This document shows, one piece after another, positions 10,437-36,647 of a DNA stretch of 64,000 nt. This DNA comes from Rhizobium sp. TH2. GTDB taxonomy: Bacteria; Pseudomonadota; Alphaproteobacteria; Rhizobiales; Rhizobiaceae. The position numbers were made by a program, and so were the translations under genes. Where the stretch lies: positions 3,658,001 to 3,722,000 of the forward strand of contig NZ_CP062231.1 in assembly GCF_024707525.1 (NCBI RefSeq). Direction: 5' to 3'. Each line of letters starts with the position of its first letter. Position 1 is the stretch's first letter. Under the pieces are notes generated by a model. It did no database searches, had not been told where the DNA came from, and saw only the letters and a list, made by a program, of their open reading frames with translations.

Positions 10437-12626
10437 TCAAGCCGCCTTCACCTTGGCCCGCTTCGCCAGATGCGCCACGACATTCTCGATCATCCGCATG
10501 CCGGCATCCGAGCCCAGCGTCATGATCGATTCCGGATGGAACTGGACTGCAGCCACCGGCTCCTTGCTGTGCTCTATGCCCATGATCGTGCCGTCCTCGG
10601 CCTCTGCGGTGATGGTGAATTCACGCGCCAGAGTCGTGGGATCGGCGAAGATCGAGTGGTAACGCCCGACCGTCACTTCCTTGCCGAGGCCGGAGAAGAC
10701 GATGCCCGGCTCCAGCACCCGGATGCGCGACGGCTTGCCGTGCATCGGGATCGCGAGATGACGCAGCTCGCCGCCATAGGCCTCGGCCAGCGCCTGCAGG
10801 CCCAGGCACACACCGAAGATCGGCAGCTTGCGCGCCCGCGCCTTCTTGATCGTCGCCTTGCAATCGAAATCGGACGGCGAGCCGGGTCCGGGCGACAGCA
10901 CGACGAGATCCGGCTTCATCCGGTCGAACACTTCCTCCGGCACCGGCGTCCGCACGGTCGTGACATTGGCGCCGGTCTGGCGGAAATAGTTGGCGAGCGT
11001 GTGGACGAAAGAGTCCTCGTGATCGACGAGCAGGATGTTGACGCCCTGCCCCACCTTGGCGACATCGCGTTTGTTCATGGCGGAATTTCCCGATTTTGCG
11101 TCCCGGATGGCGGATATCATGGCCGAGGCCTTGAGCTCGGTCTCGGCCTCTTCCTCCTCCGGAATGGAGTCGTATAGCAGCGTGGCGCCGGCACGCACTT
11201 CGGCGATGCCGTCCTTGATGCGGACCGTGCGCAGCGTCAGCCCCGTATTCATGTCGCCGTTGAAGCCGACAAAGCCGATCGCGCCACCATACCACACACG
11301 CGGGCTCTTCTCATGCGCCTCGATGAACCGCATCGCCCAGAGTTTCGGCGCGCCGGTGACGGTCACCGCCCAGGCGTGGCTCAAAAATCCGTCGAACGCA
11401 TCCATGTCGTCGCGCAACCGGCCCTCGATATGGTCGACGGTATGAATCAGCCGCGAATACATCTCGATCTGCCGGCGGCCGATGACCTTCACCGAGCCCG
11501 GCTCGCAGACGCGGCTCTTGTCGTTGCGATCGACATCGGAGCACATGGTCAGCTCGGATTCGTCCTTCTTCGAATTGAGCAATTTCAGGATCTGCTCGGA
11601 GTCCGAAATCGCATCGTCACCGCGGCGGATCGTACCGGAGATCGGGCAGGTCTCGATGCGGCGGCCATTGACCCGCACGAACATCTCCGGCGAGGCGCCG
11701 ACCAGATATTCCTGGTTGCCGAGGTTGATGAAGAAGGAATAGGGCGACGGATTGATCGCCTTTAGCCGCTTGGAAATATCCGACGGCTTCGAGTCACAGC
11801 GCTCCATGAACTTCTGCCCGGGGACAACCTCGAAGAGATCGCCGCGACGAAAGCTCTCCTTCGCCTTGGTGACCAGGCCGGCATATTCGCCGGGGCGGTG
11901 GTCGCCACGCGGCGGGATCGTATCGGTATGCTGGAAGGGTTCGGCCGGAATATCGCCCGCCTTGCCGCGCGTCGTCCTGCCGCCCTTCTCGTACTCGTAT
12001 CGATCGATCCATGCCTTGGCCGAATAGTTGTCAACGACGAGGATTTCATCGGGCAGAAACAGCACCATGTCGCGCTGGTCGTCCGGCCGCTTGAGCTTGA
12101 GGTCGATCGCATCGAACTGGAAGCAGAGATCATAACCGAACGCGCCATAAAGCCCGATCGAGGAATCCTCGCCGGAATGAAACAGGTCGGTGATGGCGCG
12201 CAGAACCGTGAACACGGTCGGCATCCGCGAGCGCTCTTCCTCGGTATAGATCCGGCTCGGCTGGTTGATCGTCAGGTCCAGACGGCGCGCCGTGCGGGCA
12301 CCCAGCGTGATCTCATCGACGCCCTCGAGGTGCTCGGTGATGATCTCGAGCAGCACTTCGCCGCGCTCATTGTAGGCATCGAGCCACATCGCCCGGCCGA
12401 AGGAGGAAATGCCGAGCGGCGGATCGGCCACGGCGACATCCCAGCGCGTATAGCGGCCCGGATATTCATAGTTGGAGGAGAGCACGGCGCCGCGCCGCTC
12501 GTCGAGCTTCTCGACATAGGAGGTGATCGCATCGCCATATTGTATCTCGCGCCGGGCGCGGGTGATGACCACGCCGCCCTTGGTCGTATATTGTTCCGAG
12601 CCGTCTTCCAGTACGCGCGTTCCCAT
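10437..12626 (-). CDS. trpE(G): Fused anthranilate synthase TrpE-TrpG
   Basis: 729 residues: the chorismate-using component I (residues 1 to about 510, with '[18 protein letters not shown]', '[12 protein letters not shown]', '[21 protein letters not shown]', '[16 protein letters not shown]') is fused to a class I glutamine amidotransferase (about 525-729) with the triad Cys in '[17 protein letters not shown]' and 'VQFHPES'. The fusion is the hallmark of rhizobia and relatives. It makes anthranilate, the first step of tryptophan synthesis; the leucine-rich 'LEDGS' start region carries the feedback site of the family. Expression is controlled by the trpL attenuator upstream (12677-12787). Confidence 0.97.
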
Positions 12627-12676
12627 TCATCTTCTCCGTTATGGCCCGGTCTTCGCGCGGCTCCGGATATAGAAAA

Positions 12677-12701
12677 AGCCGCCTCAGGTCTCCGGGCGGC
12701 T
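12677..12701 (-). terminator. trp attenuator terminator
   Basis: On the minus strand AGCCGCC, an 11-nt loop, GGCGGCT, then TTTTTC. It lies 41 nt after the trpL stop codon and 51 nt before trpE(G): the terminator form of the attenuator. Confidence 0.9.
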
Positions 12702-12742
12702 TCGTGTCTTGTCGTTTCACATGACTGTTCGAGGCCGCGTTT

Positions 12743-12787
12743 TCAGCGAGCCCACCACCAGACAGTCTTGATCGACGACGTTTTCAT
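12743..12787 (-). CDS. trpL: Tryptophan leader peptide TrpL
   Basis: Fourteen codons: MKTSSIKTVWWWAR then TGA. Three consecutive Trp codons near the end act as the tryptophan sensor. It matches the organisation of the Sinorhizobium meliloti trpE(G) leader, where the transcript begins at the AUG and the attenuated RNA (rnTrpL) and the peptide are reported to act also in trans. No Shine-Dalgarno site is present here and the -10 element ends 7 nt before the ATG, so the leader is probably translated from a leaderless message. Trans activity is known from the relative, not shown here. Confidence 0.92.
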   Translation of the reverse strand: MKTSSIKTVWWWAR

Positions 12788-12794
12788 GAAAATA

Positions 12795-12822
12795 CAAATA
12801 CCAGCGTTTTTGAGATTCACAA
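12795..12822 (-). promoter_or_regulatory. Promoter of the trpL-trpE(G) transcript
   Basis: TTGTGA (12822-12817), 16-nt spacer, TATTTG (12800-12795) on the minus strand. Expected start of transcription at about 12787, the A of the trpL ATG. Confidence 0.6.
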
Positions 12823-12867
12823 GGGGTGTCGGACATTCCGCGTCTCGCCCTGTTCCCTGCGAAACAT

Positions 12868-14400
12868 TCAGATCAGGAAATCAGCCTCAGTCAGTTCTTC
12901 CTTGGAGATGTCTTCGATGGTCAGGATATCGGTGCCGATCTGGATGACGACATTGCTGTCATCATCCACCATATGGTTGTCACGGAGATCGTTGAAGTTT
13001 GTGAACCCTTTGAGCCGGGTTAGATCGATGTGATCGCCGGCTTCGAAATCCTTGATCGCATCCTCGCCGTAGCCGGTCGAGAACACGAAACGGTCGGCGC
13101 CGATCTCACCATACAGCTCGTCAATGCCACGCCCGCCGTCAATCCGATCGTTGCCGTCACCACCATAGAGCGTGTCCGCGCCGCTGCCGCCAAGCATGGT
13201 GTCATTGCCTGCAAAGCCGTAAAGCGTGTTGTCGCCCTCGTTGCCGATCAGCAGATCACCCTTGTCGCCGCCATTGGCGTCTTCGATCTCCGCCCCATGC
13301 GCGATCGAAAAGCCGCCTGATGTGCCCCTGTAATCAGCGCCGTTGGTCGCCAGCACGCGCGAAAAGAACCCGCCCGCGTGATGCCAGGCGTCGGTGATCT
13401 CGTCCTGTAGCTTGGACGACAGGTGATCGAAAAACGCCGTGATCTTCAACTGGGAAATAAGCGCCCTAAGGTCACCCGTTGGCTTGTTCGTATCGAGCGT
13501 CGCGTCGTTGAGGTTGATGAGAACGGAACTCTCTGCGTCGGTATAATTGATCTGGTCTTTCCCACCGGAATCCCAGATGCAATAATAAGCCCGGCCGATA
13601 TCGACATCGCCCTCCTCGATGCTGAGCGGACCACCGCCGGCGTCGAGAAGTGTATAGATCGAACCCGTAATGGCATAATCCTCCGCCCCGTAGAGCGCCT
13701 GGAGCGAGGCAATGTCGAGGGCCATGAAGCTGACGGCGTGCCCGTATTCGAATGCCTTGGCAGAGCCATTGTAGGACATGACGGAGTAGCGTTCGTTGTC
13801 CATGAACTTGCCGACGGTCGAGAGCGGCGGCAACCCACGCCGTTCCTGATGCGTGTGCTTGAGGCCGACGCTGTGACCGATCTCGTGCAGCACGGTCCAG
13901 TTGGCATATTCCCCGTCGCCAGCGAGTTCCGGCGTCGCTGTCATTTGTTCGAGACCGCCGTTGAATGCTCCGAGCGACCAGCTATCCGTCTGTCCGGTGT
14001 CGTGAAACGACGTGCCGGGAAATTCGAAAAAGCCCTCCGTGCCGCTGTTCGGCCTGTTGTTCGTTACCAGCACCTGATCGGCTTCGGATTGGATGAACGT
14101 CTCTGAGAAATCGAGGATTGAAACCGAATCGATTACCTTAAAGGCATCGAGAGCAACCGCTTTCAGGCTCGCCAGGAACTCTGCATCCGGCAGCCCACCG
14201 AATGTCGTGTGATAGTCACTTGCGAATTCTGCGTCCCAGGTCAGTGTCGTCTCGTCACCGAACATGAACTGCAAATCGGTATCGTCCCAGATCGTCCTGG
14301 CCGTCAGCGAATAGAGCAGCTTCAGTCCCTTGGCCGAGAGATCACTCAGGTTGTCGGGCAAGGTTACTGAAAAATCCGGCTTGAATGTCGTGGCTGCCAT
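12868..14400 (-). CDS. M10-type metalloprotease with RTX repeats (paralogue 1)
   Basis: 510 residues. The zinc site HEIGHSVGLKHTH begins at His172 (ligands His172, His176, His182; Glu173 general base), and the Met-turn is 'YSVMSYNG' (Met208): a metzincin of the serralysin type. Residues about 375-435 carry calcium-binding RTX nonapeptides ('GNEGDNTLYGFAGNDTMLGG', 'GADTLYGGDGNDRIDGG'), followed by a serralysin-like C-terminal region. There is no N-terminal signal peptide, as expected for a type I secretion substrate; no type I exporter is in the window. The ATG at 14400 follows GGAGGGGAA closely. It lies downstream of a close paralogue (14559-16067) with a terminator between. Predicted secreted protease; substrate unknown. 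Confidence 0.9.
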   Translation of the reverse strand: MAATTFKPDFSVTLPDNLSDLSAKGLKLLYSLTARTIWDDTDLQFMFGDETTLTWDAEFASDYHTTFGGLPDAEFLASLKAVALDAFKVIDSVSILDFSETFIQSEADQVLVTNNRPNSGTEGFFEFPGTSFHDTGQTDSWSLGAFNGGLEQMTATPELAGDGEYANWTVLHEIGHSVGLKHTHQERRGLPPLSTVGKFMDNERYSVMSYNGSAKAFEYGHAVSFMALDIASLQALYGAEDYAITGSIYTLLDAGGGPLSIEEGDVDIGRAYYCIWDSGGKDQINYTDAESSVLINLNDATLDTNKPTGDLRALISQLKITAFFDHLSSKLQDEITDAWHHAGGFFSRVLATNGADYRGTSGGFSIAHGAEIEDANGGDKGDLLIGNEGDNTLYGFAGNDTMLGGSGADTLYGGDGNDRIDGGRGIDELYGEIGADRFVFSTGYGEDAIKDFEAGDHIDLTRLKGFTNFNDLRDNHMVDDDSNVVIQIGTDILTIEDISKEELTEADFLI

Positions 14401-26861: not shown

Positions 26862-27950
26862 ATGGCCACACTTCAATCCTTCGATGCGGAAATCCAGAAA
26901 ACCCAGGCGATCGTCAACGACATGCGCGGCAAGCTCGACGCATCCACCGGCGTGCTCGACCAGTTCGCCAAGGCCGATGCCAAGATCGGCGACGTCAATT
27001 TCGACATCGAGAATGCCCGCATCCAGGATGTGATCAACCAGCAGAAGGTCATGGAAGGCAATATCGCCGACCTGATCATCGGCCTGGAAGACGCGACCAA
27101 CGTCTTCGGCTCGGAATTCGAGAGCATGAAGAGCCAGACGGGATGGGAAAGTTTCATCGGCATCTTCTCCAAGCAGTCGGCACAGCGCATGCGCACCGAG
27201 CGCGTCCGCAACATGTCGCTCGCCGGCAACCTGCAGGAACTGCTTGCGAAATCCGACTCCATCGTCGGCATGCTCAAGGAGCAGAAGTCTGTCCTGGAAC
27301 AGCGCTACAAGTCCTCCGAGACCAATCTCGTGCAGGTCATCCAGCGCCGCAAGAACACCATCACCAATCTCGAAGCCGTCCAGAAGCGCATCGAGGAAAT
27401 CAATCCGCTGCTGATGGATATCGAAAACAAGATCGCCGCCACCACCGATCAGGTCGCGCGCCAGGATCTCGAGGCCGAACGCTCGAAGCTCGCCACCGAA
27501 TATAATCAGATGCAGGCCAAGGAGCAGGAACTGCTGGCCGAGAGCCAGACGCTCGAACGCTACACCTCGATGTTCCAGACCTTCGTCGATTCGCTCAACA
27601 ACCAGCTCGCCGCCCAGAACACGCTGATCAACAAGCTGACCATCGATACCGAGCAGCGCATCGTGCTCTACAAGGCGCTCGAGGATTCGTTGAAGACCGC
27701 CGCCCAGCAGGACGTCGCCCACAAGATCAACACGCTCGGCAGCCAGGTCGATACCGCCGCGGAGGAAACCATGGCCGGCATCGGTGCAGCTGCCCAGAAG
27801 CACATCGGCGATCTGCTCGAAATGCACGAGAAGAACATGCTGTCGACCCAGGACATCCAGCGCCGCAAGAAGCTCGCCGACGATGCTTTCGCCCGCCGCT
27901 TCCAGACGGTGCTCGACAAGCACAATTCCGCGAATTACGTGAAGCAGTAA
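26862..27950 (+). CDS. Coiled-coil protein, first gene of the SPFH/AAA operon
   Basis: 362 residues from ATG 26862, preceded by AAGGGGGACACC. It is essentially all-helical: no membrane segment, no signal, long heptad-type stretches from about residue 130 to 260 ('EQKSVLEQRYKSSETNLVQVIQRRKNTITNLEAVQKRIEEIN'-like content, quoted in part: 'EINPLLMDIENKIAATTDQV'). A short aromatic patch 'TGWESFIGIFSKQ' near residue 90 breaks the helix pattern. The C-terminal end 'RRKKLADDAFARRFQTVLD' is basic. The organisation is reminiscent of TelA/YaaN-type helical proteins but I cannot establish homology. Leads a tight operon (spacing 71, 13, then the repeat element). Function unknown; a scaffold or adaptor for the membrane SPFH protein and the AAA ATPase is an inference. 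Confidence 0.85.
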   Translation: MATLQSFDAEIQKTQAIVNDMRGKLDASTGVLDQFAKADAKIGDVNFDIENARIQDVINQQKVMEGNIADLIIGLEDATNVFGSEFESMKSQTGWESFIGIFSKQSAQRMRTERVRNMSLAGNLQELLAKSDSIVGMLKEQKSVLEQRYKSSETNLVQVIQRRKNTITNLEAVQKRIEEINPLLMDIENKIAATTDQVARQDLEAERSKLATEYNQMQAKEQELLAESQTLERYTSMFQTFVDSLNNQLAAQNTLINKLTIDTEQRIVLYKALEDSLKTAAQQDVAHKINTLGSQVDTAAEETMAGIGAAAQKHIGDLLEMHEKNMLSTQDIQRRKKLADDAFARRFQTVLDKHNSANYVKQ

Positions 27951-28021
27951 AAGAAACAGTTTGGTTCTTTGCCTGGTGGCCGGTCATGCCGGCTGCCAGC
28001 GGACCCGTGGGAGAGATTTGA

Positions 28022-28903
28022 ATGGCTGAAGCAGCGGCGCCTGCCCCCAAACGCGGATTCATCAGAACAGCAGTGATTGCTATTGTTGTCGGCATCCTCG
28101 CGCTGATCATCTTCGGCGGCAGCTTCTACACGATCGACCAGGGCGAGCGCGGCGTCATCCTGCGCTATGGCGCGGTCGTCGGCACCGCCGAGCCGGGCCT
28201 CGGCTTCAAGCTGCCGATGATCGACACCGTCGTGAAGATTTCGGTCCAGAGCCGTGCCAAGGTCTATGACAACGTCAACACCTATTCCCGCGACCAGCAG
28301 CCCGCCAACATCACCATCTCTGTGAACTACCGCCTGCCGGCCGACCAGGTCGACAAGATCTATGCCGAATATGGCGGCGAGGAGGGCATCGTCAATCGCC
28401 TGATCGACCGCCGCCTTTTCGAGCAACTGAAGAACGTCTTCGGCCGCTTCAACGCCGTGACCGCAATACAGGACCGCGCCAAGCTGAACGCCGAGACGGA
28501 AGACGCGATCCGCAAGTTCATCGTCGGCCCGGTGGTGATCGAAAGCGTGCAGATCGAGAATATCGATTTCTCAGACGCCTATGAGCAGTCGATCGAAAAC
28601 CGCATGCTGGCCGAAGTCGAAGTCCAGAAACTGCAACAGAATGCCGAGCGCGAGAAGGTGCAGGCGCAGATCACCGTCACCCAGGCCAATGCCCGCGCCG
28701 ACGCCGTTCGCGCCGAGGCAGAAGCAAACGCCGCGGCCACCCGCCTCGCCGGCGACGCGGAAGCCGACGCGATCCGTGCCAAGGGCGCCGCACTCCGCGA
28801 CAACCCCTCGCTGATCAACCTGACGGCGGCCGAAAAATGGAACGGGGCGCTTCCCTCGACCATGGTGCCGGGCTCGGCGCTACCCTTCATCGGCGTCAAG
28901 TAA
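28022..28903 (+). CDS. SPFH/prohibitin-family membrane protein
   Basis: 293 residues. One membrane segment at residues 13-38 (FIRTAVIAIVVGILALIIFG), then the SPFH domain: 'IDQGERGVILRYGAVVGTAEPGLGFKLPMIDTVVKISVQ', 'TISVNYRLPADQVDKIYAEYG', 'LNAETEDAIRKFI'. From about residue 185 follows the long Ala/Glu/Arg-rich helix typical of prohibitin and HflC ('MLAEVEVQKLQQNAEREKVQ', 'RADAVRAEAEANAAATRLAG'). Such proteins form large ring or cage assemblies on the membrane and often partner with AAA proteases (FtsH, for HflKC). Here the AAA ATPase is encoded two genes downstream, which suggests a dedicated pair. Start supported by GGGAGAGATTTGA. Confidence 0.92.
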   Translation: MAEAAAPAPKRGFIRTAVIAIVVGILALIIFGGSFYTIDQGERGVILRYGAVVGTAEPGLGFKLPMIDTVVKISVQSRAKVYDNVNTYSRDQQPANITISVNYRLPADQVDKIYAEYGGEEGIVNRLIDRRLFEQLKNVFGRFNAVTAIQDRAKLNAETEDAIRKFIVGPVVIESVQIENIDFSDAYEQSIENRMLAEVEVQKLQQNAEREKVQAQITVTQANARADAVRAEAEANAAATRLAGDAEADAIRAKGAALRDNPSLINLTAAEKWNGALPSTMVPGSALPFIGVK

Positions 28904-28916
28904 AGGGAGCCGGTCG

Positions 28917-30062
28917 ATGCGCCCAGTGGAACCCGCCGTCCAGCAATATTTCTTGACCGTCCGCGCGGCCTTCGAGGGCATGGAGATCTATCTCGATGAC
29001 CTGAGCCGCGGCCAGGCGATCAAGGACCTGACGGCGACGCTGATCATGAAATATGTCGAGCGGCTGAAGACCTCGCTCGGCTGCTGGGAAAACAAGACCG
29101 GCTTCATGGATCGCTTCAAGATCTCGCGCGCCGAATCCGGCTTTCCGATCTACCAGAACGTGCTCGAACTCGAAAACGACCGCAAGACCGCGCCCGAGCG
29201 GCTGTCGGGCATCCCCGACGGCACCAAATTGCGCGCCGAGATGGTCGATTTCATCCTGCGCAACAAGGCTTTCCCCGAGGCGCTACAGGGCCGCATGGCC
29301 GAGCGGCTCTATCTCGAGGAAGTGGTCAAGGGCGAGGTCTTCTCGCCGGTGATCCTGCCCGAGACTTCAGGCATATCCATCAATCCCGACACCCGCCGCC
29401 CCTCGATCGTCGTCAACTGGGCCGCCTTCGACGGTAGCCAGACGCTGCCGATGATCTACATCGCCAAGATCGAGGATTCCTCGGAAAACATGAGCCGGAT
29501 GCTGATCACCCGCGACGGCAAGCTCAACAGCGATCTCGATATCCCGCTGCCGGTCGGCGGCCTGCTCAATCCCGAACTCGCCGCCCGCTTCGACGATTTC
29601 GTGATCCGCAATTCGGGCTTCGCACTGTCGCCGGTGACGATCGTCACCAACATGGACAAGGATTTCGAGACGCTCCATCCCAAGCAGATGCGCCGCATCG
29701 TCATCGGCCCGTTCTATTCCGCCGGCATCACCGAGAACAACGCCGTGATCAACGGCATCCTGTCGCGCGTGAAGAAAAAGGAGAATGCCTGGCTGCTCAC
29801 CTGGACCGTGCAGGAAGTCTTCTCGACGCGCGAGAAGCCCGAGGTGAAGGGCTTCTTCTCCTCGACCAAGGCGCAGCAGGAATTCCACATCGACACGTCA
29901 AATATGGAAGCCTCCCGCATGGGCGTCTCGGCCTTCGAGAAACACGCGCTGGTGCCGCACGAAGCCTATACCGCGCTCTATGCCTCCAACGAGGCGGATA
30001 CGATTTTTGCGGGTTACAAAGTGCATGTGATCTCCGGCAACCAGGTGACGAGCGAGGTTTGA
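28917..30062 (+). CDS. Conserved protein of unknown function, SPFH/AAA operon
   Basis: 381 residues, preceded by AAAGGGAGCC. Soluble, mixed alpha/beta, no membrane segment or signal. The N-terminal 110 residues are helical ('YFLTVRAAFEGMEIYLDDLSRGQAIKDL'); the rest is rich in beta-strand patterns and contains 'RRPSIVVNWAAFDGSQTLPMIYIAKIEDSS' and 'RRIVIGPFYSAGITENN'. No catalytic motif is recognised. Its stop is followed immediately by a 171-bp repeat element, so its original spacing to the AAA gene is lost. Confidence 0.8.
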   Translation: MRPVEPAVQQYFLTVRAAFEGMEIYLDDLSRGQAIKDLTATLIMKYVERLKTSLGCWENKTGFMDRFKISRAESGFPIYQNVLELENDRKTAPERLSGIPDGTKLRAEMVDFILRNKAFPEALQGRMAERLYLEEVVKGEVFSPVILPETSGISINPDTRRPSIVVNWAAFDGSQTLPMIYIAKIEDSSENMSRMLITRDGKLNSDLDIPLPVGGLLNPELAARFDDFVIRNSGFALSPVTIVTNMDKDFETLHPKQMRRIVIGPFYSAGITENNAVINGILSRVKKKENAWLLTWTVQEVFSTREKPEVKGFFSSTKAQQEFHIDTSNMEASRMGVSAFEKHALVPHEAYTALYASNEADTIFAGYKVHVISGNQVTSEV

Positions 30063-30078
30063 GATGGGTGAATTTCGC

Positions 30079-30249
30079 AAGAAAGACCCCGCCCCAACCC
30101 CTCCCCACAAGGGGGAGGGGCTTAACGCGCCGCACCGCCTCACATCGCTTCGAAGCTTGCAGGACATGACGCCGTCCATGATAAAATGAGAGGATGCCGC
30201 AGCTTAGCCCCTCCCCCTTGTGGGGAGGGGTTGGGGCGGGGTCTTTCTT
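30079..30249. repeat. 171-bp MITE-like element with 44-bp perfect inverted repeats
   Basis: The arms 30079-30122 and 30206-30249 are exact reverse complements over 44 nt and enclose an 83-bp centre. Each arm itself contains a 9-bp self-complementary block (CCCCTCCCC / GGGGAGGGG with a 5-nt loop). The element fills most of the 220-nt gap between two genes of the operon. Its size, palindromic arms and GC-rich C/G runs fit the intergenic repeat families found in many copies in rhizobial genomes. No ORF or target-site duplication is evident. It could add transcript stability, a terminator, or simply be tolerated. Confidence 0.9.
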
Positions 30250-30282
30250 ACTTCTAAACCCGACCGCCGAGAGGAAAGACCC

Positions 30283-32199
30283 ATGTCCCTGAACACCGGC
30301 CTGACCGCCATCCCCGAAGACGACATCACCAAGCATCAGTCCATCGCCCAGAGCTTCGTCACCAAGGTCGTGATGCTGGAAAACGATTCCGGCACGTCAG
30401 GCACCGCGCTCGCCGGCACCAACCGCCGCTTCGTCTCGACCGTCTCGACCGGCGGCAACCGCCGCACCCGCGAGGTCGAACTCGCCCGCACCATCCAGTC
30501 GGTCCGCGCGGCCGACCAGATGTTGTCGCCGAACCAGCACACGCTTCTCTTCCGCGCCCGTCGCGGCGTGATGGTGGGCCTCGCCGTCGCCGATGTCTTC
30601 TCGCGCCAGACCAATCTCGAGGGCCTGCAGGCCCGCAACACCACCGCGCCGCTCCAGGGCCCGGACGCCGATAATTTCAAGGCACTGCTCTCGGCTGCTG
30701 CCTACATTACCGCCTTCACCTTCGCGGCCTACCTCACCACCACACTCCCCGGCGAAGGCGAACCGGCGGAGGACGTCACTGAACCGGATTACCTGTTCGA
30801 CACGCCGCAGGATGCCGCCAAATCCATGGTCGCCGGCCTCGAACGCGCAATCGCCGGCTCGCCCGACGACACCGCGATGATCAGCCGCGCCCGGGCCTTC
30901 GCCCGTGTCGCCACCGAAGGCCTGATCTCCCGCAAGGCCCGCTTCACCGGCCTCGCCGCCTTCGAGAACGTTCATATCCGCATCGAACAGGACGATTTCG
31001 ACCTCAACGGATTCGACGTGACGCCAGGCGCGAAACGCAAGCCGCTGGTCATGACCTTCAAGAAGCCTGAAGAGGTCGTCGGCAATCATATCGCCAAATA
31101 CCAGAGCATGAAGCTCGCCAAGATGATCATGGCCTACGACTTCCAGAAACAGATGAACCCTTTCGTCGAACTCGGCGGCTTCCTCTTCACCTTCATCGGC
31201 GACGGCATGCCCGGCACCGGCAAGACCACGCTGATCCAGATGATTGCCGGCCTGATGAACAACTATTGCGAGATCGCCGGCTACGCCTTCCACTACGAAA
31301 ATTTCGGCGTCGACCAGATTTCCTCCTACCAGGGCAAGTCGGGCCAGAACTGCAAGGACTTCATCAACAACGTCATGAACCCGAAGGCGATCGGGTTCGG
31401 CACGATCGATGACGTCGATCAGGTCGCGGCCAAGCGCTCCGACGACCGCGCCTCCGCCGGTCAGCAGGAGGTCACCGCCGTGCTGATGGAAAGCTTCGCC
31501 GGAGCCTCGACCGTGGTGCGCGGCAATTGCACGTTCGGCATGCTCTCCAACTACCCGGAAAATGTCGATGATGCGCTCCGCCAGCGTGCCGGCGCCCGTT
31601 GGCTGGTCGATGGTCCGCAGACCCGCGAGGACTATATCGACATCTTTGCGCTTCTCGCCGGCAAGAACCATTCGATCCCGCTCGGCGAACACCAGCTCTA
31701 CGCCAACCAGGAGATCAAGAAGGCCGTCTCCGAAACCTATCAGGCGCATGCCAAGCCGCACGAGGAAGGCCTCGCCGCAGTCTGGGAGCGCTTCGAAAAG
31801 GAAAAGGGCGGCCTGAAAACCATCGCCGATGTGGGCACCTACCTCCACATGATCCGCATCGCCGAACCCCGCTTCACCGGCCGCGCAGTCAAGAACATCA
31901 CCGACGCGGTCAAGATGCGCGCCATGGATGTCGAGCTTCCCGACCAGTGGTTCGAGAAGCCCGAAAACTTCATGCACAAGTCCTACGATGAGAAGAAGGC
32001 GATGATCGAGCATCTGCGCGGCCCGATCACCCTCGACATGATCCTCCAGGAAATCAACCGCTACGGCGACTCGGAATTCCGCTACACCGACAAATCCGAC
32101 GACGCCGCCATCAACGACATCATCCGCCGCGAACGCCAACGCGAGAAGGCGATCAAGGAGATCGAGGAGATGCGCAAGGATGGACGGTGGAGCGCGTGA
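30283..32199 (+). CDS. AAA family ATPase, SPFH/AAA operon
   Basis: 638 residues from ATG 30283, preceded by GAGAGGAAAGA. Walker A 'GDGMPGTGKTTL' at residues 306-317 (Lys314) and Walker B-like 'IGFGTIDDVDQV' at about 370-381. Downstream 'SNYPENVDDALRQRAGARWLVDG' looks like the sensor/arginine-finger region. The N-terminal 300 residues are a family-specific domain with no membrane segment ('SPNQHTLLFRARRGVMVGL'). The C-terminal 60 residues are charged and helical ('RRERQREKAIKEIEEMRKDG'). It is probably a hexameric remodelling ATPase, not a protease, since no HExxH or Ser/Lys protease site is present. Clusters with SPFH and DUF2333 genes point to a membrane-associated machine of unknown role. 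Confidence 0.88.
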   Translation: MSLNTGLTAIPEDDITKHQSIAQSFVTKVVMLENDSGTSGTALAGTNRRFVSTVSTGGNRRTREVELARTIQSVRAADQMLSPNQHTLLFRARRGVMVGLAVADVFSRQTNLEGLQARNTTAPLQGPDADNFKALLSAAAYITAFTFAAYLTTTLPGEGEPAEDVTEPDYLFDTPQDAAKSMVAGLERAIAGSPDDTAMISRARAFARVATEGLISRKARFTGLAAFENVHIRIEQDDFDLNGFDVTPGAKRKPLVMTFKKPEEVVGNHIAKYQSMKLAKMIMAYDFQKQMNPFVELGGFLFTFIGDGMPGTGKTTLIQMIAGLMNNYCEIAGYAFHYENFGVDQISSYQGKSGQNCKDFINNVMNPKAIGFGTIDDVDQVAAKRSDDRASAGQQEVTAVLMESFAGASTVVRGNCTFGMLSNYPENVDDALRQRAGARWLVDGPQTREDYIDIFALLAGKNHSIPLGEHQLYANQEIKKAVSETYQAHAKPHEEGLAAVWERFEKEKGGLKTIADVGTYLHMIRIAEPRFTGRAVKNITDAVKMRAMDVELPDQWFEKPENFMHKSYDEKKAMIEHLRGPITLDMILQEINRYGDSEFRYTDKSDDAAINDIIRRERQREKAIKEIEEMRKDGRWSA

Positions 32200-32237
32200 T
32201 CCTCGGTTATCTCTTCACTTTCGGCTAGGAGTTTAAA

Positions 32238-32471
32238 GTGTCGAATTCTTTCACCATTGACTTGAATGATGAGGGTCTTGAGCGGTTGAAAGCTGCTGCT
32301 GCTCATGTAGGAAAGTCGCCTATAGATTTCGTCCGTGAGGCGGTGCAAGAGCACATCGAAGATGTTGAAGACGTCATAAGTGCTGAGGCCGCCCTTACGA
32401 AAATTCGTTCAGGCGAAATGAAGACCTATCCACTCGAAGAATTGATGCGCGAATTCGGCCCTGAAAACTGA
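32238..32471 (+). CDS. RelB/DinJ-type ribbon-helix-helix antitoxin, orphan
   Basis: 77 residues from GTG 32238 with TAGGAG at 32226-32231. Pattern of a RHH DNA-binding antitoxin: 'SFTIDLNDEGLERLKAAAAHVGKSPIDFVREAVQEHIEDVEDV' (strand, then two helices), followed by a toxin-wrapping tail 'AALTKIRSGEMKTYPLEELMREFG'. The toxin gene that should follow survives only as its last 26 codons (32472-32552). It is inserted in the SPFH/AAA operon between the AAA gene and the next member. Confidence 0.82.
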   Translation: MSNSFTIDLNDEGLERLKAAAAHVGKSPIDFVREAVQEHIEDVEDVISAEAALTKIRSGEMKTYPLEELMREFGPEN

Positions 32472-32552
32472 CGTGCGGTTTGCGACCTCCAACACAATAA
32501 GCTAGTGGTTCTCGTCATCGAGATTGGACACCGACGTGAAGTCTACAGGTAG
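32472..32552 (+). pseudogene. C-terminal remnant of a RelE toxin
   Basis: Directly after the antitoxin TGA, the same frame stays open for 26 codons ending in TAG 32550-32552. The translation contains AVCDLQHNKLVVLVIEIGHR, then REVYR and the stop: this is the standard end of RelE-type toxins (YR..CDIQDD.LVVLVV..GHRREVYR). The start and the first roughly 60 codons of the toxin are missing, so the gene is dead by internal deletion. Not expressed as a product unless by readthrough of the antitoxin stop. Confidence 0.85.
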
Positions 32553-32567
32553 AACATTGGCCGCCGC

Positions 32568-33857
32568 ATGAAACGCCTCCTCGAAGCAGAACTGATTTAC
32601 GGACGGCTGTTGTCGGTCAACGAGCCGCATCTGATCGCCCGCTACAACAAGGCGCTCAAAGGGTTTGGCTTGCCCGAGACCAAGCTCACCGAATTCGACA
32701 TCGACATGACCGGCTTTTCGCCGCAGATCGCGGCCGAACTCGGCGACCGGGATTATCTCGACCCCAACCGCGTCAACCGCCGCTTCGTCATCCTCACCCC
32801 CGGCCAGGAGCAATTGCCCGTCGTCCATACGAGCTTTTCCAACACCGCCGCCCTGATGCACGAATTCTTCAACGCCAATGCGCGCGCCATCAATGCCGTC
32901 ACCATCAAGGACGCGCTCTATGGCGAGATCGAGGATTCGGTCGCCACCGTCGATCACATCGAGGACCTGCTTTCGATCAACGAGGTGCATTTCCAGGTCC
33001 ATTCGGCCGAAGACATCCTCGGCAAGGCAGCCGAACTGCGCCAGCTCGCCGACATGCTGGTTTCCAAGCCCGATGCCTGGCGCGACAACGAGATGCTCAA
33101 TCGCATGGTCGAACTGTCGAGGACCACTGGCGACATCCGCCAGAACACGCTCGTCCCGGACCAGCTCGTCTTCCGCCACGATGCCTTCTGGGCCAATCAT
33201 TTTGGCGGCGTGTTCGTATTCCACGACGACCGCAACACGACCGTCATCTGCAAGTCCGATGTTCCAGGCTTCCGCAAGGCGCGTCCGTGGCAGGTCTCCT
33301 ATATCGATATCGAGGATTACGAGACGATCTACGGCTTCCTCGCCCGCACCAAGCGGCTGGAACTGCCGCAAGGCTCGTGGATCCGCGAATCCGGCCTGCT
33401 CGAGCACCGCATGGAAATGGCTCTCCTCAACCTCGCCGGCCAGAAGGATCCCGCTTTCGACCCTGCCAAGGCAGATCGCGTCTGGCTACAGACCTGGGCG
33501 CATATGAATGCCAGGACGGTCGCCGAGGATGGCGTCTATCCTTTTCTGGCCGAGATGCAGCGCCAGATCGTTTCGACCGGCCAGGTGCGCATGCCCGATG
33601 TCGCGGCCCGCTTCCGCTTCCTGCTCGTCCGCGCCAACCCCGGCCATCCCGACAAATGGCTGGTCAACCAGTTGATCTCGCGGATGCAGACCTTCGATTT
33701 CGTCTCGCTATACGTCTTCGACAAGCAGGGTTTCTACGAAGCCTACGAGCGCTATCCGGACAAATTCCAGGAACACGTTGTGCAGACGCTGCAGGATACA
33801 TATCTGACTGACAAGGCCGCCTTCCGCCGTCGCCTGTACGGCATCAAAGAGGATTGA
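32568..33857 (+). CDS. Conserved protein of unknown function (possibly DUF6638), SPFH/AAA operon
   Basis: 429 residues, start MKRLLEAELIYGRLLSVNEP. Soluble, no membrane segment. Conserved-looking parts: 'HLIARYNKALKGFGLPETKLTEFDIDMTGFSPQIAAELGD', 'VVHTSFSNTAALMHEFFNANARAINAVTIKDALYGEIEDSV', 'TLVPDQLVFRHDAFWANHFGGVFVFHDDRNTTVICKSD', 'LLVRANPGHPDKWLVNQLI'. I recall this as the family catalogued DUF6638; the number should be checked. There is no strong Shine-Dalgarno site, perhaps because the decayed toxin-antitoxin module replaced the original upstream sequence. Ends 4 nt before the DUF2333 gene. Confidence 0.8.
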   Translation: MKRLLEAELIYGRLLSVNEPHLIARYNKALKGFGLPETKLTEFDIDMTGFSPQIAAELGDRDYLDPNRVNRRFVILTPGQEQLPVVHTSFSNTAALMHEFFNANARAINAVTIKDALYGEIEDSVATVDHIEDLLSINEVHFQVHSAEDILGKAAELRQLADMLVSKPDAWRDNEMLNRMVELSRTTGDIRQNTLVPDQLVFRHDAFWANHFGGVFVFHDDRNTTVICKSDVPGFRKARPWQVSYIDIEDYETIYGFLARTKRLELPQGSWIRESGLLEHRMEMALLNLAGQKDPAFDPAKADRVWLQTWAHMNARTVAEDGVYPFLAEMQRQIVSTGQVRMPDVAARFRFLLVRANPGHPDKWLVNQLISRMQTFDFVSLYVFDKQGFYEAYERYPDKFQEHVVQTLQDTYLTDKAAFRRRLYGIKED

Positions 33858-33861
33858 CCAT

Positions 33862-34980
33862 ATGCTCGACCCGATCATCCAGTTCTTCCAGAACATCTTC
33901 AGCGCGATCGGACGCGGCATCGGATATGTCATCGCCTGGATACTCTTCCCCTTCCTGAGCGCCGGCCGCTGGTATGCCTCGCGCGGCTTCATCCTCAAGG
34001 GCGTGGTCGGGTTGATCGTCGTCCTGCTTTTCATCGCCTACGGGCATTTCATCTACCAGACGCAGGTCTGGTACGGCTTCAACCCCGATCGTATCGCCGA
34101 TTACAAACTCGAAACCCGCACCCTCCCGGCCGGCGCACCATTGTCTGGTGAAGACCCTGCCGCGCCGAAGAAGTGCCAGCCGTCGGCGATCGTCGAGGTG
34201 ACGGCTGATCTGATCGACATGGAGGTCAATCAGAACAACTGGATTACGCAGGCGCCGCTCTACAAAATGGGGCTTTTCGGCATCGATTGGGACAACACGC
34301 CCTGGCTTGATAACAAGGCATCGTTCCAGCGCGGCGTGAACCAGGCAGTCCGCCGCACCACCGTGGAGCTTGTCGATCGGCTCGCCCGCGTGCGCGGTAC
34401 ATCGGGCATCAATGCGAAACTGCAGGTCGCCCGTTCCGCCTCGCTCTACGATGAGACGGCCTGGTACATCAACTTTCCCTTCAGCATCAGGGATCCCGCA
34501 TCCAAGCAGTTCAATATTGCGATGAATAACCTGAGGGGGTTCAACACGGAGCTGGCCAACTGCCAATCGATCTTCGATGGCCGCACCGACAACCTGCTGC
34601 AGTTCATGGACAACATTGCCAATGACCTTGGCAATACGTCGAGCATCCTGACCCAGCGCTCGCAGAACTACAATGCGGGCTGGTTCGACACGCGCGCGGA
34701 TGACCGGTTCTGGTTCACCTTCGGCCAGATCTACGGCTATTACTCCATCCTTTCGGCAGCCCGCGCCGATTTCGCACCCGTGGTCAAGGAGAAGAACCTC
34801 GGCGCACTCTGGCAACAGATGCTCGATCGCCTCCGCTCTTCGCTCAAAATCCAGCCGGTGATCATCTCGAATGGTGCGGAAGATGGCTGGATCATGCCCA
34901 CGCATCTGGCGACGCAGGGCTTTTATCTGCTGAACGCGCGCAACACGATTGTTGACATCCGCGACGTGCTCGATCGCTGA
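33862..34980 (+). CDS. DUF2333-type membrane protein, last gene of the SPFH/AAA operon
   Basis: 372 residues. Amphipathic N-terminus (IIQFFQNIFSAIGRGIGYVI) and a membrane segment at about 42-63 (GFILKGVVGLIVVLLFIAYG), followed by a large periplasmic domain: 'CQPSAIVEVTADLIDMEVNQNNWI', 'AVRRTTVELVDRLARVRGTSG', 'NFPFSI', 'YGYYSILSAARADFAPVVKEKNLGALWQQMLD', 'EDGWIMPTHLATQGFYLLNARNTIVDIRDVLD'. The family is known as DUF2333 and is uncharacterised. Together with the SPFH protein it provides the membrane part of the putative complex. A strong terminator follows at 35003. Confidence 0.87.
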   Translation: MLDPIIQFFQNIFSAIGRGIGYVIAWILFPFLSAGRWYASRGFILKGVVGLIVVLLFIAYGHFIYQTQVWYGFNPDRIADYKLETRTLPAGAPLSGEDPAAPKKCQPSAIVEVTADLIDMEVNQNNWITQAPLYKMGLFGIDWDNTPWLDNKASFQRGVNQAVRRTTVELVDRLARVRGTSGINAKLQVARSASLYDETAWYINFPFSIRDPASKQFNIAMNNLRGFNTELANCQSIFDGRTDNLLQFMDNIANDLGNTSSILTQRSQNYNAGWFDTRADDRFWFTFGQIYGYYSILSAARADFAPVVKEKNLGALWQQMLDRLRSSLKIQPVIISNGAEDGWIMPTHLATQGFYLLNARNTIVDIRDVLDR

Positions 34981-35002: not shown

Positions 35003-35036
35003 AACTCCGTTTCCACGGTCATTTGGAAACGGAGTT
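35003..35036 (+). terminator. Intrinsic terminator of the SPFH/AAA operon
   Basis: 13-bp perfect stem AACTCCGTTTCCA / TGGAAACGGAGTT, 8-nt loop, followed by ATTCTGG. Located 22 nt after the DUF2333 stop. Confidence 0.88.
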
Positions 35037-35318
35037 ATTCTGGCTTGCCGCCGATCATTGCAGAGCACAGCCGATGAATTCGCCCTGAATCGAGGCTGCG
35101 CTCCGAAGCCATAAGTTGCACCGAAACCTTGCTCCGGCCTTGCCCGATGCAAGATATGGATCAATTCCGGTGATCTCTTATGAAATTCTCTTGCCTCCCT
35201 TGACCCGGCAATGCCGCTTGGTAGTTTGCGCGGTGATGACGACGGCGCACATCGACTGCCCAAATCCCTGGATTTCCGGGCAGCGAGCGAAACCAAGGCG
35301 CCCTTTCCGGAGAACGAA
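35037..35318. other. Upstream region of the aminotransferase gene
   Basis: 282 bp without a gene. A likely promoter at 35200-35227 is the only recognised element; an ORF reading into the aminotransferase from 35211 lacks family similarity. Confidence 0.5.
35200..35227 (+). promoter_or_regulatory. Probable promoter of the aminotransferase gene
   Basis: TTGACC (35200-35205), 16-nt spacer, TAGTTT (35222-35227), 91 nt before the start codon at 35319. Confidence 0.45.
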
Positions 35319-36647
35319 ATGTCAAATCGCCTGAACACGACGCCCAACGACATGCGGGCGTTCTGGATGCCCTTCACCGCCAACCGCCAGTTCAAGAAGG
35401 AGCCCAGGCTCTTCGTCAGCGCGAAGGACATGTATTACAAGACCCATGACGGCCGCACCGTGCTCGATGGCACCGCCGGCCTCTGGTGCGTGAACGCCGG
35501 CCACTGCCGCCCGAAGATCACCGAAGCCATCCAGCAGCAGGCCGGCGAGCTCGATTACGCCCCCGCCTTCCAGCTCGGCCACCCCAAGGCCTTCGAGCTT
35601 GCCAACCGCCTGATCGACATCGCACCCGAGGGCATGAGCCATGTGCTGTACACCAATTCCGGCTCTGAATCGGTAGAGACGGCGCTCAAGGTCGCACTCG
35701 CCTATCACCGCGTGAAGGGCAACGGCTCGCGCTTCCGCCTGATCGGCCGCGAGCGCGGCTATCACGGAGTCAATTTCGGCGGCATCTCTGTCGGCGGCAT
35801 CGTCGCCAACCGCAAGATGTTCGGCACGCTGCTCACCGGCGTCGACCACATGCCGCACACCCATTTCCCCGACAAGAATGCCTTCACCAAGGGCGAGCCG
35901 GAACATGGCGGCGACATCGCTTCCGAACTCGAGCGCATCGTAACCCTGCATGATGCGTCCACCATCGCGGCCGTCATCGTCGAGCCGGTCGCCGGCTCCA
36001 CCGGCGTCATCCTGCCGCCCAAGGGCTATCTCAAGAAGCTCCGCGAAATCTGCACCAAGCACGGCATCCTGCTGATCTTCGATGAAGTCATCACCGGCTT
36101 CGGCCGCCTCGGCACCCCCTTCGCCGCCGATTATTTCGGCGTCAAGCCCGACATGATCACCATGGCCAAGGGCCTCACCAACGGCGTGATCCCGATGGGC
36201 GCCGTCTTCGTGACCGACGAGATCCATGACGCCTTCATGCAAGGCCCGGAGCACATGATCGAGTTCTTCCACGGCTACACCTATTCGGGCAACCCGATCG
36301 CCTGTGCCGCAGCCCTCGGCACGCTCGACACCTACAAGGACGAAGGCCTGCTCACCCGCGGCACTGAGATGGCCCCCTATTGGGAAGAGGCGCTGCATTC
36401 GCTGAAGGATTGCCCGCATGTCATCGACATCCGGAACATCGGCCTGATCGGCGCGATCGAGCTCAAGCCGATCGACGGCGAGCCGACCAAGCGCGCCTTC
36501 TCCGCCTTCCTCAAGGCCTATGAGAAGGGCCTGCTGATCCGCACCACGGGCGATATCATTGCGCTGTCGCCGCCGCTGATTATCGAGAAGAGCCATATCG
36601 ACGAACTCGTCGGCAGGCTGCGCGACGTGCTGGTGGCGAACGCCTGA
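35319..36647 (+). CDS. Omega-amino acid:pyruvate aminotransferase (class III)
   Basis: 442 residues from ATG 35319 (MSNRLNTTPNDMRAFWMPF), preceded by CCGGAGAAC. Class III PLP enzyme: 'GTAGLWCVNAGHCRPKI', 'YTNSGSESVETALKVAL', 'RERGYHGVNFGGISVGG', 'VIVEPVAGSTGVILPPKGYL', 'LLIFDEVITGFGRLG', and the PLP lysine in 'MITMAKGLTNGVIPMGAV'. The sequence is of the beta-alanine/omega-amino acid:pyruvate transaminase type; exact amino donor unknown. Monocistronic between a promoter and a good terminator. Confidence 0.93.
   Translation: MSNRLNTTPNDMRAFWMPFTANRQFKKEPRLFVSAKDMYYKTHDGRTVLDGTAGLWCVNAGHCRPKITEAIQQQAGELDYAPAFQLGHPKAFELANRLIDIAPEGMSHVLYTNSGSESVETALKVALAYHRVKGNGSRFRLIGRERGYHGVNFGGISVGGIVANRKMFGTLLTGVDHMPHTHFPDKNAFTKGEPEHGGDIASELERIVTLHDASTIAAVIVEPVAGSTGVILPPKGYLKKLREICTKHGILLIFDEVITGFGRLGTPFAADYFGVKPDMITMAKGLTNGVIPMGAVFVTDEIHDAFMQGPEHMIEFFHGYTYSGNPIACAAALGTLDTYKDEGLLTRGTEMAPYWEEALHSLKDCPHVIDIRNIGLIGAIELKPIDGEPTKRAFSAFLKAYEKGLLIRTTGDIIALSPPLIIEKSHIDELVGRLRDVLVANA

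Follow-up and report, generated by a model that had tools for sequence, protein, structure and literature searches.

Gene content of the locus

We analyzed a stretch of 64,000 nucleotides from Rhizobium sp. TH2 (contig NZ_CP062231.1, positions 3,658,001 to 3,722,000; hereafter the window), in which six same-strand genes, named here A to F, lie at positions 26862-34980 (Table 1). An earlier interpretation of this DNA from its letters alone (the sequence-only reading) had described a long coiled-coil protein, an SPFH (prohibitin-like) membrane protein, an AAA ATPase, two soluble proteins that it could not place and a DUF2333-type membrane protein with a large domain, and had proposed that all six form one dedicated complex. 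Open reading frame (ORF) calling confirmed the six co-oriented genes, and most of the descriptions were borne out. B matches Band_7/SPFH (PF01145, 9.3e-34; 117.4 bits, cut-off 23.6), D matches AAA (PF00004, 2.9e-12), F matches DUF2333 (2.3e-17; 63.4 bits, cut-off 22) and the structural model of A is all helical. A simple hydropathy scan found one transmembrane (TM)-like segment in B (residues 13-31, N-terminal), one in F, and none in A, C, D or E. The two unplaced proteins are thus soluble, as had been said, and C has no Pfam family above cut-off, but E belongs to DUF6638 (1.3e-71; 242.2 bits, cut-off 27). The conserved unit at this locus is A-C-D-E and not the six-gene set.

Table 1 Genes and motifs of the locus, in window coordinates.
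Feature	Position	Strand	Description	Basis or conservation
Gene A	26862..27950	+	362-residue coiled-coil protein; proposed scaffold/hub	ORF call; found wherever D occurs in the order and family samples
A residues 273-294 block (LEDSLKTAAQQDVAHKINTLGS)	27678..27743	+		gone from A of lineages without C, D and E
Gene B	28022..28903	+	293 residues, SPFH/Band_7; genus-level addition, non-core	Pfam, synteny
Gene C	28917..30062	+	381 residues, soluble; core	Pfam scan, synteny
Gene D	30283..32199	+	638 residues, classical AAA ATPase with N-terminal part of ~290 residues; core motor	Pfam
D Walker A, residues 306-315 (GDGMPGTGKT)	31198..31227	+		invariant except residue 309
D Walker B acidic pair D376 D377 (DD, not DE)	31408..31413	+		invariant
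D sensor-1 N423 and second region of homology R433, R435, R439	31549..31599	+		invariant
Gene E	32568..33857	+	429 residues, DUF6638, soluble; core	Pfam, synteny
Gene F	33862..34980	+	372 residues, DUF2333; optional membrane partner with a TM-like segment ahead of a large domain	Pfam

A, C, D and E occur together

To the window we added 47 fetched loci, 45 chosen for D and two (L086, L087) for E, and scanned all 48 with hidden Markov models (HMMs) of A to F (L and G numbers denote our loci and genomes). The order A-C-D-E on one strand was found in 47 of the 48. In the other, L097, A is cut by the end of the contig. In L095, C is broken into two ORFs. B was present in two loci, the window and its closest relative (L004). 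Since these loci had been selected for D or E, we searched 150 genomes of the order, the same set each time, separately for A, D, E (as DUF6638) and F (as DUF2333). D was found in 27 genomes; the G380 match is only a 38-residue fragment where a contig stops. A was found in the same 27 and, in diverged form, in G218; a further A match, in G268, is a spurious coiled-coil hit (E-value 2e-4). E was found in the same 27 and in G340, whose 3.2-kb contig stops inside E. The co-occurrence of A and D gives a Fisher p=6e-29, a value that leaves G268 out and ignores relatedness. At the family level, 33 of 61 genomes have strong matches to D, setting aside two AAA hits at 3-4e-4 (G191, G249), and A is present in those 33 as well as in G218 and G236. 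More widely the unit is sparse: D occurs in 20 of 299 genomes of the phylum, one of them (G433) outside the class, and DUF6638 in 3 of 190 genomes of the class, the window's included.

Of 72,556 plasmid records searched, 10 contain D (E limit 1e-20), 11 contain A and 10 contain E (DUF6638, Vibrio query), with ten records common to all three. Four of these ten are Vibrio replicons of ~0.9 Mb, three from V. parahaemolyticus and one from V. vulnificus. The two that we opened have the identical A-C-D-E order, with HMM E-values of 8e-77 to 2e-200; in one Vibrio record the proteins are 25-40% identical to those of the window. The four Vibrio E copies are 98-100% identical to each other, which suggests that the Vibrio copies are probably one lineage. 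Over 48 sequences, the distance matrices of the four core proteins correlate at 0.89-0.96. By co-occurrence and by synteny, the linkage of A-C-D-E exceeds chance. The proposal of a dedicated multi-gene unit with no named function therefore survives for these four genes, which keep their order from Alphaproteobacteria to Vibrio, and fails for the six as one set, B being an addition of the genus and F optional. Homologues without linkage, which the sequence-only reading had set beforehand as its refutation, were seen for SPFH and in part for DUF2333, and not for A, D or E.

D is a classical AAA ATPase

The Walker A motif of D lies exactly at the residues given by the sequence-only reading. Over 50 sequences, 102 positions of D are invariant, with the catalytic motifs among them (Table 1); the roles of sensor 1 and the second region of homology are assigned from AAA biochemistry. 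As the catalytic motifs are invariant over these sequences, ATP hydrolysis by an oligomer of D is expected. No peptidase family was matched in D by Pfam, which returned only AAA, AAA_19 and ABC_tran, in agreement with the earlier statement that D has no protease site. The solved relatives of D found by sequence are AAA domains only.

The soluble partners of D are less readily placed. When 18 diverse C proteins were scanned singly, family matches were scattered, each in few members. The structure model of C has a predicted template modelling score (pTM) of 0.80, and residues 157-343 bear a weak T-fold-like resemblance. Homology between C and E was considered and rejected on comparison. For three of the four core proteins, we found no relative of known function.

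B is an SPFH protein added at the genus level

Of nine genomes sampled from the window's genus, seven have B; the other two are 81% and 83% complete. At E 1e-30, none of the 22 relatives from other genera gave a match to B. Relatives exist in other settings. The best 12 of 85 phage records have copies 49-55% identical to B, and rhizobial relatives, which account for 11 of the 12 plasmid-collection records listed, share 64-69% identity with it; in Shinella sp. PSBB067 the relative lies 1.1 Mb away from that strain's operon. Relatives of B are held by 214 plasmid records, 48 of them typed conjugative. On a Kosakonia plasmid (L151, 4001-4780), a ‘prohibitin family’ SPFH gene with 55% identity to B lies between traB and traV of an F-type conjugation operon. 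These relatives in phages, in a conjugation operon and at unlinked rhizobial sites indicate that the SPFH family of B travels in mobile elements. B was probably recruited once into the operon of the window's genus and kept.

The sequence-only reading had placed SPFH at the center, as a membrane cage on which an AAA ATPase acts, much as in HflKC-FtsH, and had put DUF2333 into that complex too. Two observations agree with such an arrangement. B sits between A and C in all seven B-bearing genomes of the genus, and the ratio of nonsynonymous to synonymous substitution rates (dN/dS) of B ranges from 0.06 to 0.16 over six comparisons, close to the low values of A and C, indicating purifying selection. 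However, B is missing from 46 of the 48 loci, its relatives are unlinked in other rhizobia and in phages, D has no protease family, and B scores only 52.6 bits against hflC (cut-off 134.4) and 48.7 bits against hflK (cut-off 159.4). We conclude that the SPFH cage is refuted as a general model and consider it highly improbable. Membership of the HflKC-FtsH system was likewise rejected, on the scores of B below both the HflK and HflC cut-offs, the lack of a zinc protease family in D and the absence of SPFH elsewhere.

The membrane slot after E

The same-strand gene that comes after E encodes DUF2333 (F) in 35 of the 48 loci and DUF1523 in the remaining 13. The DUF1523 HMM was built from eleven of the 13 proteins, with L082 and L120 as independent matches, and all three DUF1523 proteins tested match Pfam DUF1523. 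Nine of these 13 loci come from one other family of the class, presumably Rhodobacteraceae, three from the window's order, and one is that of G433. The idea that DUF1523 is a divergent SPFH protein was rejected, as it has no profile similarity to B. Neither DUF2333 nor DUF1523 was matched in the stretches read from two Vibrio records and from R. leguminosarum pRlX5, so membrane tethering is not universal. In the sample of 150 genomes, DUF2333 occurs in 33, 23 of which have D (from a total of 27 with D) and 10 of which do not. Two of these 10 have another gene of the core, a diverged A in G218 and E adjoining F in G340; in the other eight neither A, D nor E was found. F may therefore also act elsewhere. 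According to PMC5256989, a DUF2333 gene beside the hcp3 locus of a type VI secretion system is conserved but uncharacterized. In an alignment of 11 DUF2333 proteins from this slot, two cysteines past the TM segment (C105 and C234) are invariant and could form a disulfide.

These patterns bear on a second possibility, in which the core is a cytoplasmic chaperone or AAA assembly or quality-control machine. C and E would then be substrate adaptors, A would serve as tether or ruler, and the membrane genes would be mere neighbors. The absence of TM-like segments from all four core proteins would fit, as would the lack of both membrane families in the Vibrio and pRlX5 stretches and the eight genomes with F and without A, D and E. 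Against it, every one of the 48 loci has a same-strand membrane protein after E, at a gap of up to 1.7 kb (L094), and a pair of diverged A and DUF2333 persists where C, D and E are missing. On this balance we consider a purely cytoplasmic machine rather unlikely.

A, a predicted helical protein with a block that is absent where C, D and E are missing

No Pfam family above cut-off was found for the window's A. Single scans of 19 diverse A proteins gave scattered family matches, each in few members (25 of the 60 families listed). The AlphaFold model is of low confidence (predicted local distance difference test, pLDDT, 58), and a fold search with it returned many weak, unspecific coiled-coil matches. 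TelA (toxic anion resistance) is a helical protein similar in size to A. As an identity for A it was rejected: TelA (PF05816) has no match to the window's A up to E 1, nor does it appear among those 25 listed families, and TelA was found in none of 41 genomes of the family.

The long helical hairpin of A next to an AAA ATPase recalls membrane repair by PspA/Vipp1 (ESCRT-III-like) proteins, here with a bacterial Vps4-like motor. The likeness is one of architecture only, and a PspA rod and BAR domains do appear among the many weak fold matches of A. These matches are, however, unspecific; up to E 1, the window's A has no match to PspA_IM30 and A retrieves no PspA or Vipp1 chain, and PspA_IM30 is not among the 25 listed families for the 19 A proteins. 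We therefore judge a PspA/Vipp1 system to be quite improbable.

Conservation within A points to a candidate contact region. Over 49 sequences, 45 positions of A are invariant. The A proteins of R. leguminosarum pSK03 (L150) and G218 (L128) keep 22 of these 45 and are missing exactly residues 273-294. The A of G236 (L152), which is 26% identical to that of pSK03, keeps 16 and has lost all seven invariants between residues 276 and 293. All three loci have a choline transporter, a thymidine kinase (identified by eye in G218 and G236), the diverged A and DUF2333, with no C, D or E in the stretches read. D is absent from the whole genomes of G218 and G236 and E from the whole genome of G218; for the pSK03 host, the absence of C, D and E refers to the stretch read. 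DUF2333 in these lineages is undecayed: the G218 and G236 proteins share 56-57% identity with F of the window. We infer that C, D and E were lost from these lineages rather than never present. The A proteins of Vibrio and G433, which have C, D and E and are both among the 49 defining sequences, hold all 45 invariants. The A of pRlX5, from outside the defining set, keeps 41 of 45, including all seven of the block. Since the lineages without C, D and E have an A that lacks the invariants of this block, we propose that residues 273-294 are the part of A that serves C/D/E.

Insertions and genomic setting

The space between D and E is a hot spot for insertions, measuring at most 60 bp in 25 of the 48 loci and more than 350 bp in 16. 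In the window it holds an antitoxin-like ribbon-helix-helix (DUF6290) ORF of 77 residues at 32238-32471, followed, as judged by eye, by a RelE-like C-terminal remnant (the two spanning 32238-32549). Besides the window, inserts are present in L004, L005, L006, L089, L090, L091, L126, L127 and L146. Those scanned comprise a ParE-type toxin with a helix-turn-helix gene, ribbon-helix-helix antitoxins, a PIN domain, DUF559 endonuclease-like genes and an insertion sequence element, and in L071 two TadE/TadG-like genes lie within the gap (11435-13882). Between C and D the window has a perfect 44-bp inverted repeat, with arms at 30079-30122 and 30206-30249, 83 bp apart; a search within the window found no second copy of its core. 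The sequence-only reading had placed the operon terminator at 35003. A 13-pair hairpin is indeed present after F (35003-35036), but the minus strand carries its T tract. It is thus not a canonical terminator for the operon, and its assignment as such is doubtful. The next gene past the hairpin is a plus-strand aminotransferase gene (35310-36647).

In S. meliloti Ak57 the gene order is choVWX, thymidine kinase, A, C, D, an endonuclease-domain gene, ISRm16, E, DUF2333 and formate-tetrahydrofolate ligase. From this order, and from choX being SMc02737, we suspect that SMc02733 is gene D. Fragment F9, which lies inside SMc02733, appears in a table of a ChvI DNA-binding screen (PMC3687685). The 3.7-Mb S. 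meliloti record of L146 (CP090106.1), labelled pSymB, holds choVWX and the operon, and may be a mislabelled chromosome.

A further possibility is that the operon is an uncatalogued anti-phage or mobile-element conflict system. Its patchy spread (33 of 61 family genomes; DUF6638 in 3 of 190 class genomes), the large Vibrio and R. leguminosarum replicons that bear it and the toxin-antitoxin-type genes in the D-E gap of several loci are all in line with such a role. But the matches to PADLOC, a library of described systems only, are at the level of domains (D to TRIP13 at 3e-6 and to IetA at 0.0015; A to JetC at 0.0027), and none of its curated models explains the set. Neither D (window query) nor A (Vibrio query) has a relative in 50,697 phage records, and two peptide patterns did not find D in viral contigs. 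Many Rhizobiaceae loci share the site linked to the choline transporter and D evolves slowly, unlike a defence island. We regard a conflict system as improbable. Carriage of the core by phages was rejected for D and A, for which none was found; C and E were outside the phage search.

A proposed AAA-driven machine with exchangeable membrane partners

We propose that A-C-D-E is a single AAA-driven machine with A as its scaffold, D engaging A near residues 273-294, and an exchangeable membrane anchor, a reading to which we give about even weight. The arrangements seen with A are A+CDE+F, A+CDE+DUF1523, A+CDE, A+B+CDE+F, and diverged A with F. A is placed as the hub because it is present in every arrangement beyond F alone, the G340 contig that ends inside E apart. 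In the proposed mechanism, A would form a rod-like coiled-coil scaffold and D an ATP-hydrolyzing ring that engages it, directly or via C and E as soluble adaptors, with the engagement of D, C and E at the conserved block around residues 273-294. A separate, exchangeable protein would anchor A in the inner membrane, namely F/DUF2333 at most loci from the window's taxonomic order and DUF1523 at another set of loci. In the window's genus, a phage/plasmid-type SPFH protein inserted between A and C would serve as an additional membrane partner. ATP turnover by D would then remodel or disassemble assemblies of A at the membrane. The physical contacts, the ring, the place of A as both scaffold and substrate, and the attachment to the membrane are all inferred. 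A role in maintenance of the envelope is a guess.

Several observations weigh against this proposal. The 48 loci were themselves picked for their content of D or E, and the structural model of A is of low confidence. The core stands without DUF2333 or DUF1523 in the Vibrio and pRlX5 stretches, and eight of the 150 genomes have DUF2333 and neither A, D nor E. In the lineages without C, D and E, the A proteins are diverged throughout, with invariants outside the block lost at 16 of 38 positions in L150 and G218 and at 22 of 38 in G236. If positions are treated as independent, the chance that all seven block residues are lost is 0.005 for L150 and 0.03 for G236. The block was picked post hoc and is removable by a single deletion, general decay may explain its absence, and both lineages may trace to one ancient loss.

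Relation to known systems

AAA-driven remodelling machines are already known as a kind, and only the motor D belongs to a known kind. With rather less than even confidence, we suggest that the operon encodes an undescribed AAA machine for bacterial membrane remodelling, unrelated to ESCRT-III/PspA, HflKC-FtsH and MoxR. It would have a four-protein core, a block in A (residues 273-294) engaging the motor, and interchangeable anchors (DUF2333, DUF1523 and a captured phage-type SPFH). Among the papers listed for DUF6638, DUF2333, DUF1523, S. meliloti SMc02730-02739 and ChvI/envelope/AAA, no functional study of the operon was seen, and literature searches for the combination of SPFH, AAA and coiled coil, and for DUF6638/DUF2333 with transposon sequencing, returned no paper. 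The core travels as a unit from Rhizobiaceae to Vibrio. Through natural losses the set exists as A+F in some lineages and as A+C+D+E in others, so that simple deletions could test the proposed architecture. In the window's genus, a phage/plasmid-type SPFH protein has been taken into a host AAA operon and kept.

D resembles the classical AAA ATPases (Cdc48, PAN, proteasomal Rpt and i-AAA) in its AAA domain, with sensor 1 and the second region of homology. It differs from them in having DD for DE in Walker B, in N- and C-terminal parts without a match, and in its dedicated operon. In the window's genus, the operon shares with HflK-HflC/FtsH the pairing of an SPFH gene and an AAA ATPase gene, but D has no protease family, and B lies under the family cut-offs and is restricted to 2 of 48 loci. 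B itself is close to the ‘prohibitin family’ SPFH proteins of phages and plasmids (49-55% to the phage copies listed, 55% to the F-type tra copy), yet lies in an AAA operon on a 5.9-Mb contig. Finally, the operon resembles ESCRT-III/Vps4 and PspA/Vipp1 in encoding an AAA ATPase with a long helical-hairpin protein, and is set apart from them by an A protein for which no sequence relationship to PspA/Vipp1 was found and by two extra soluble core proteins, C and E.

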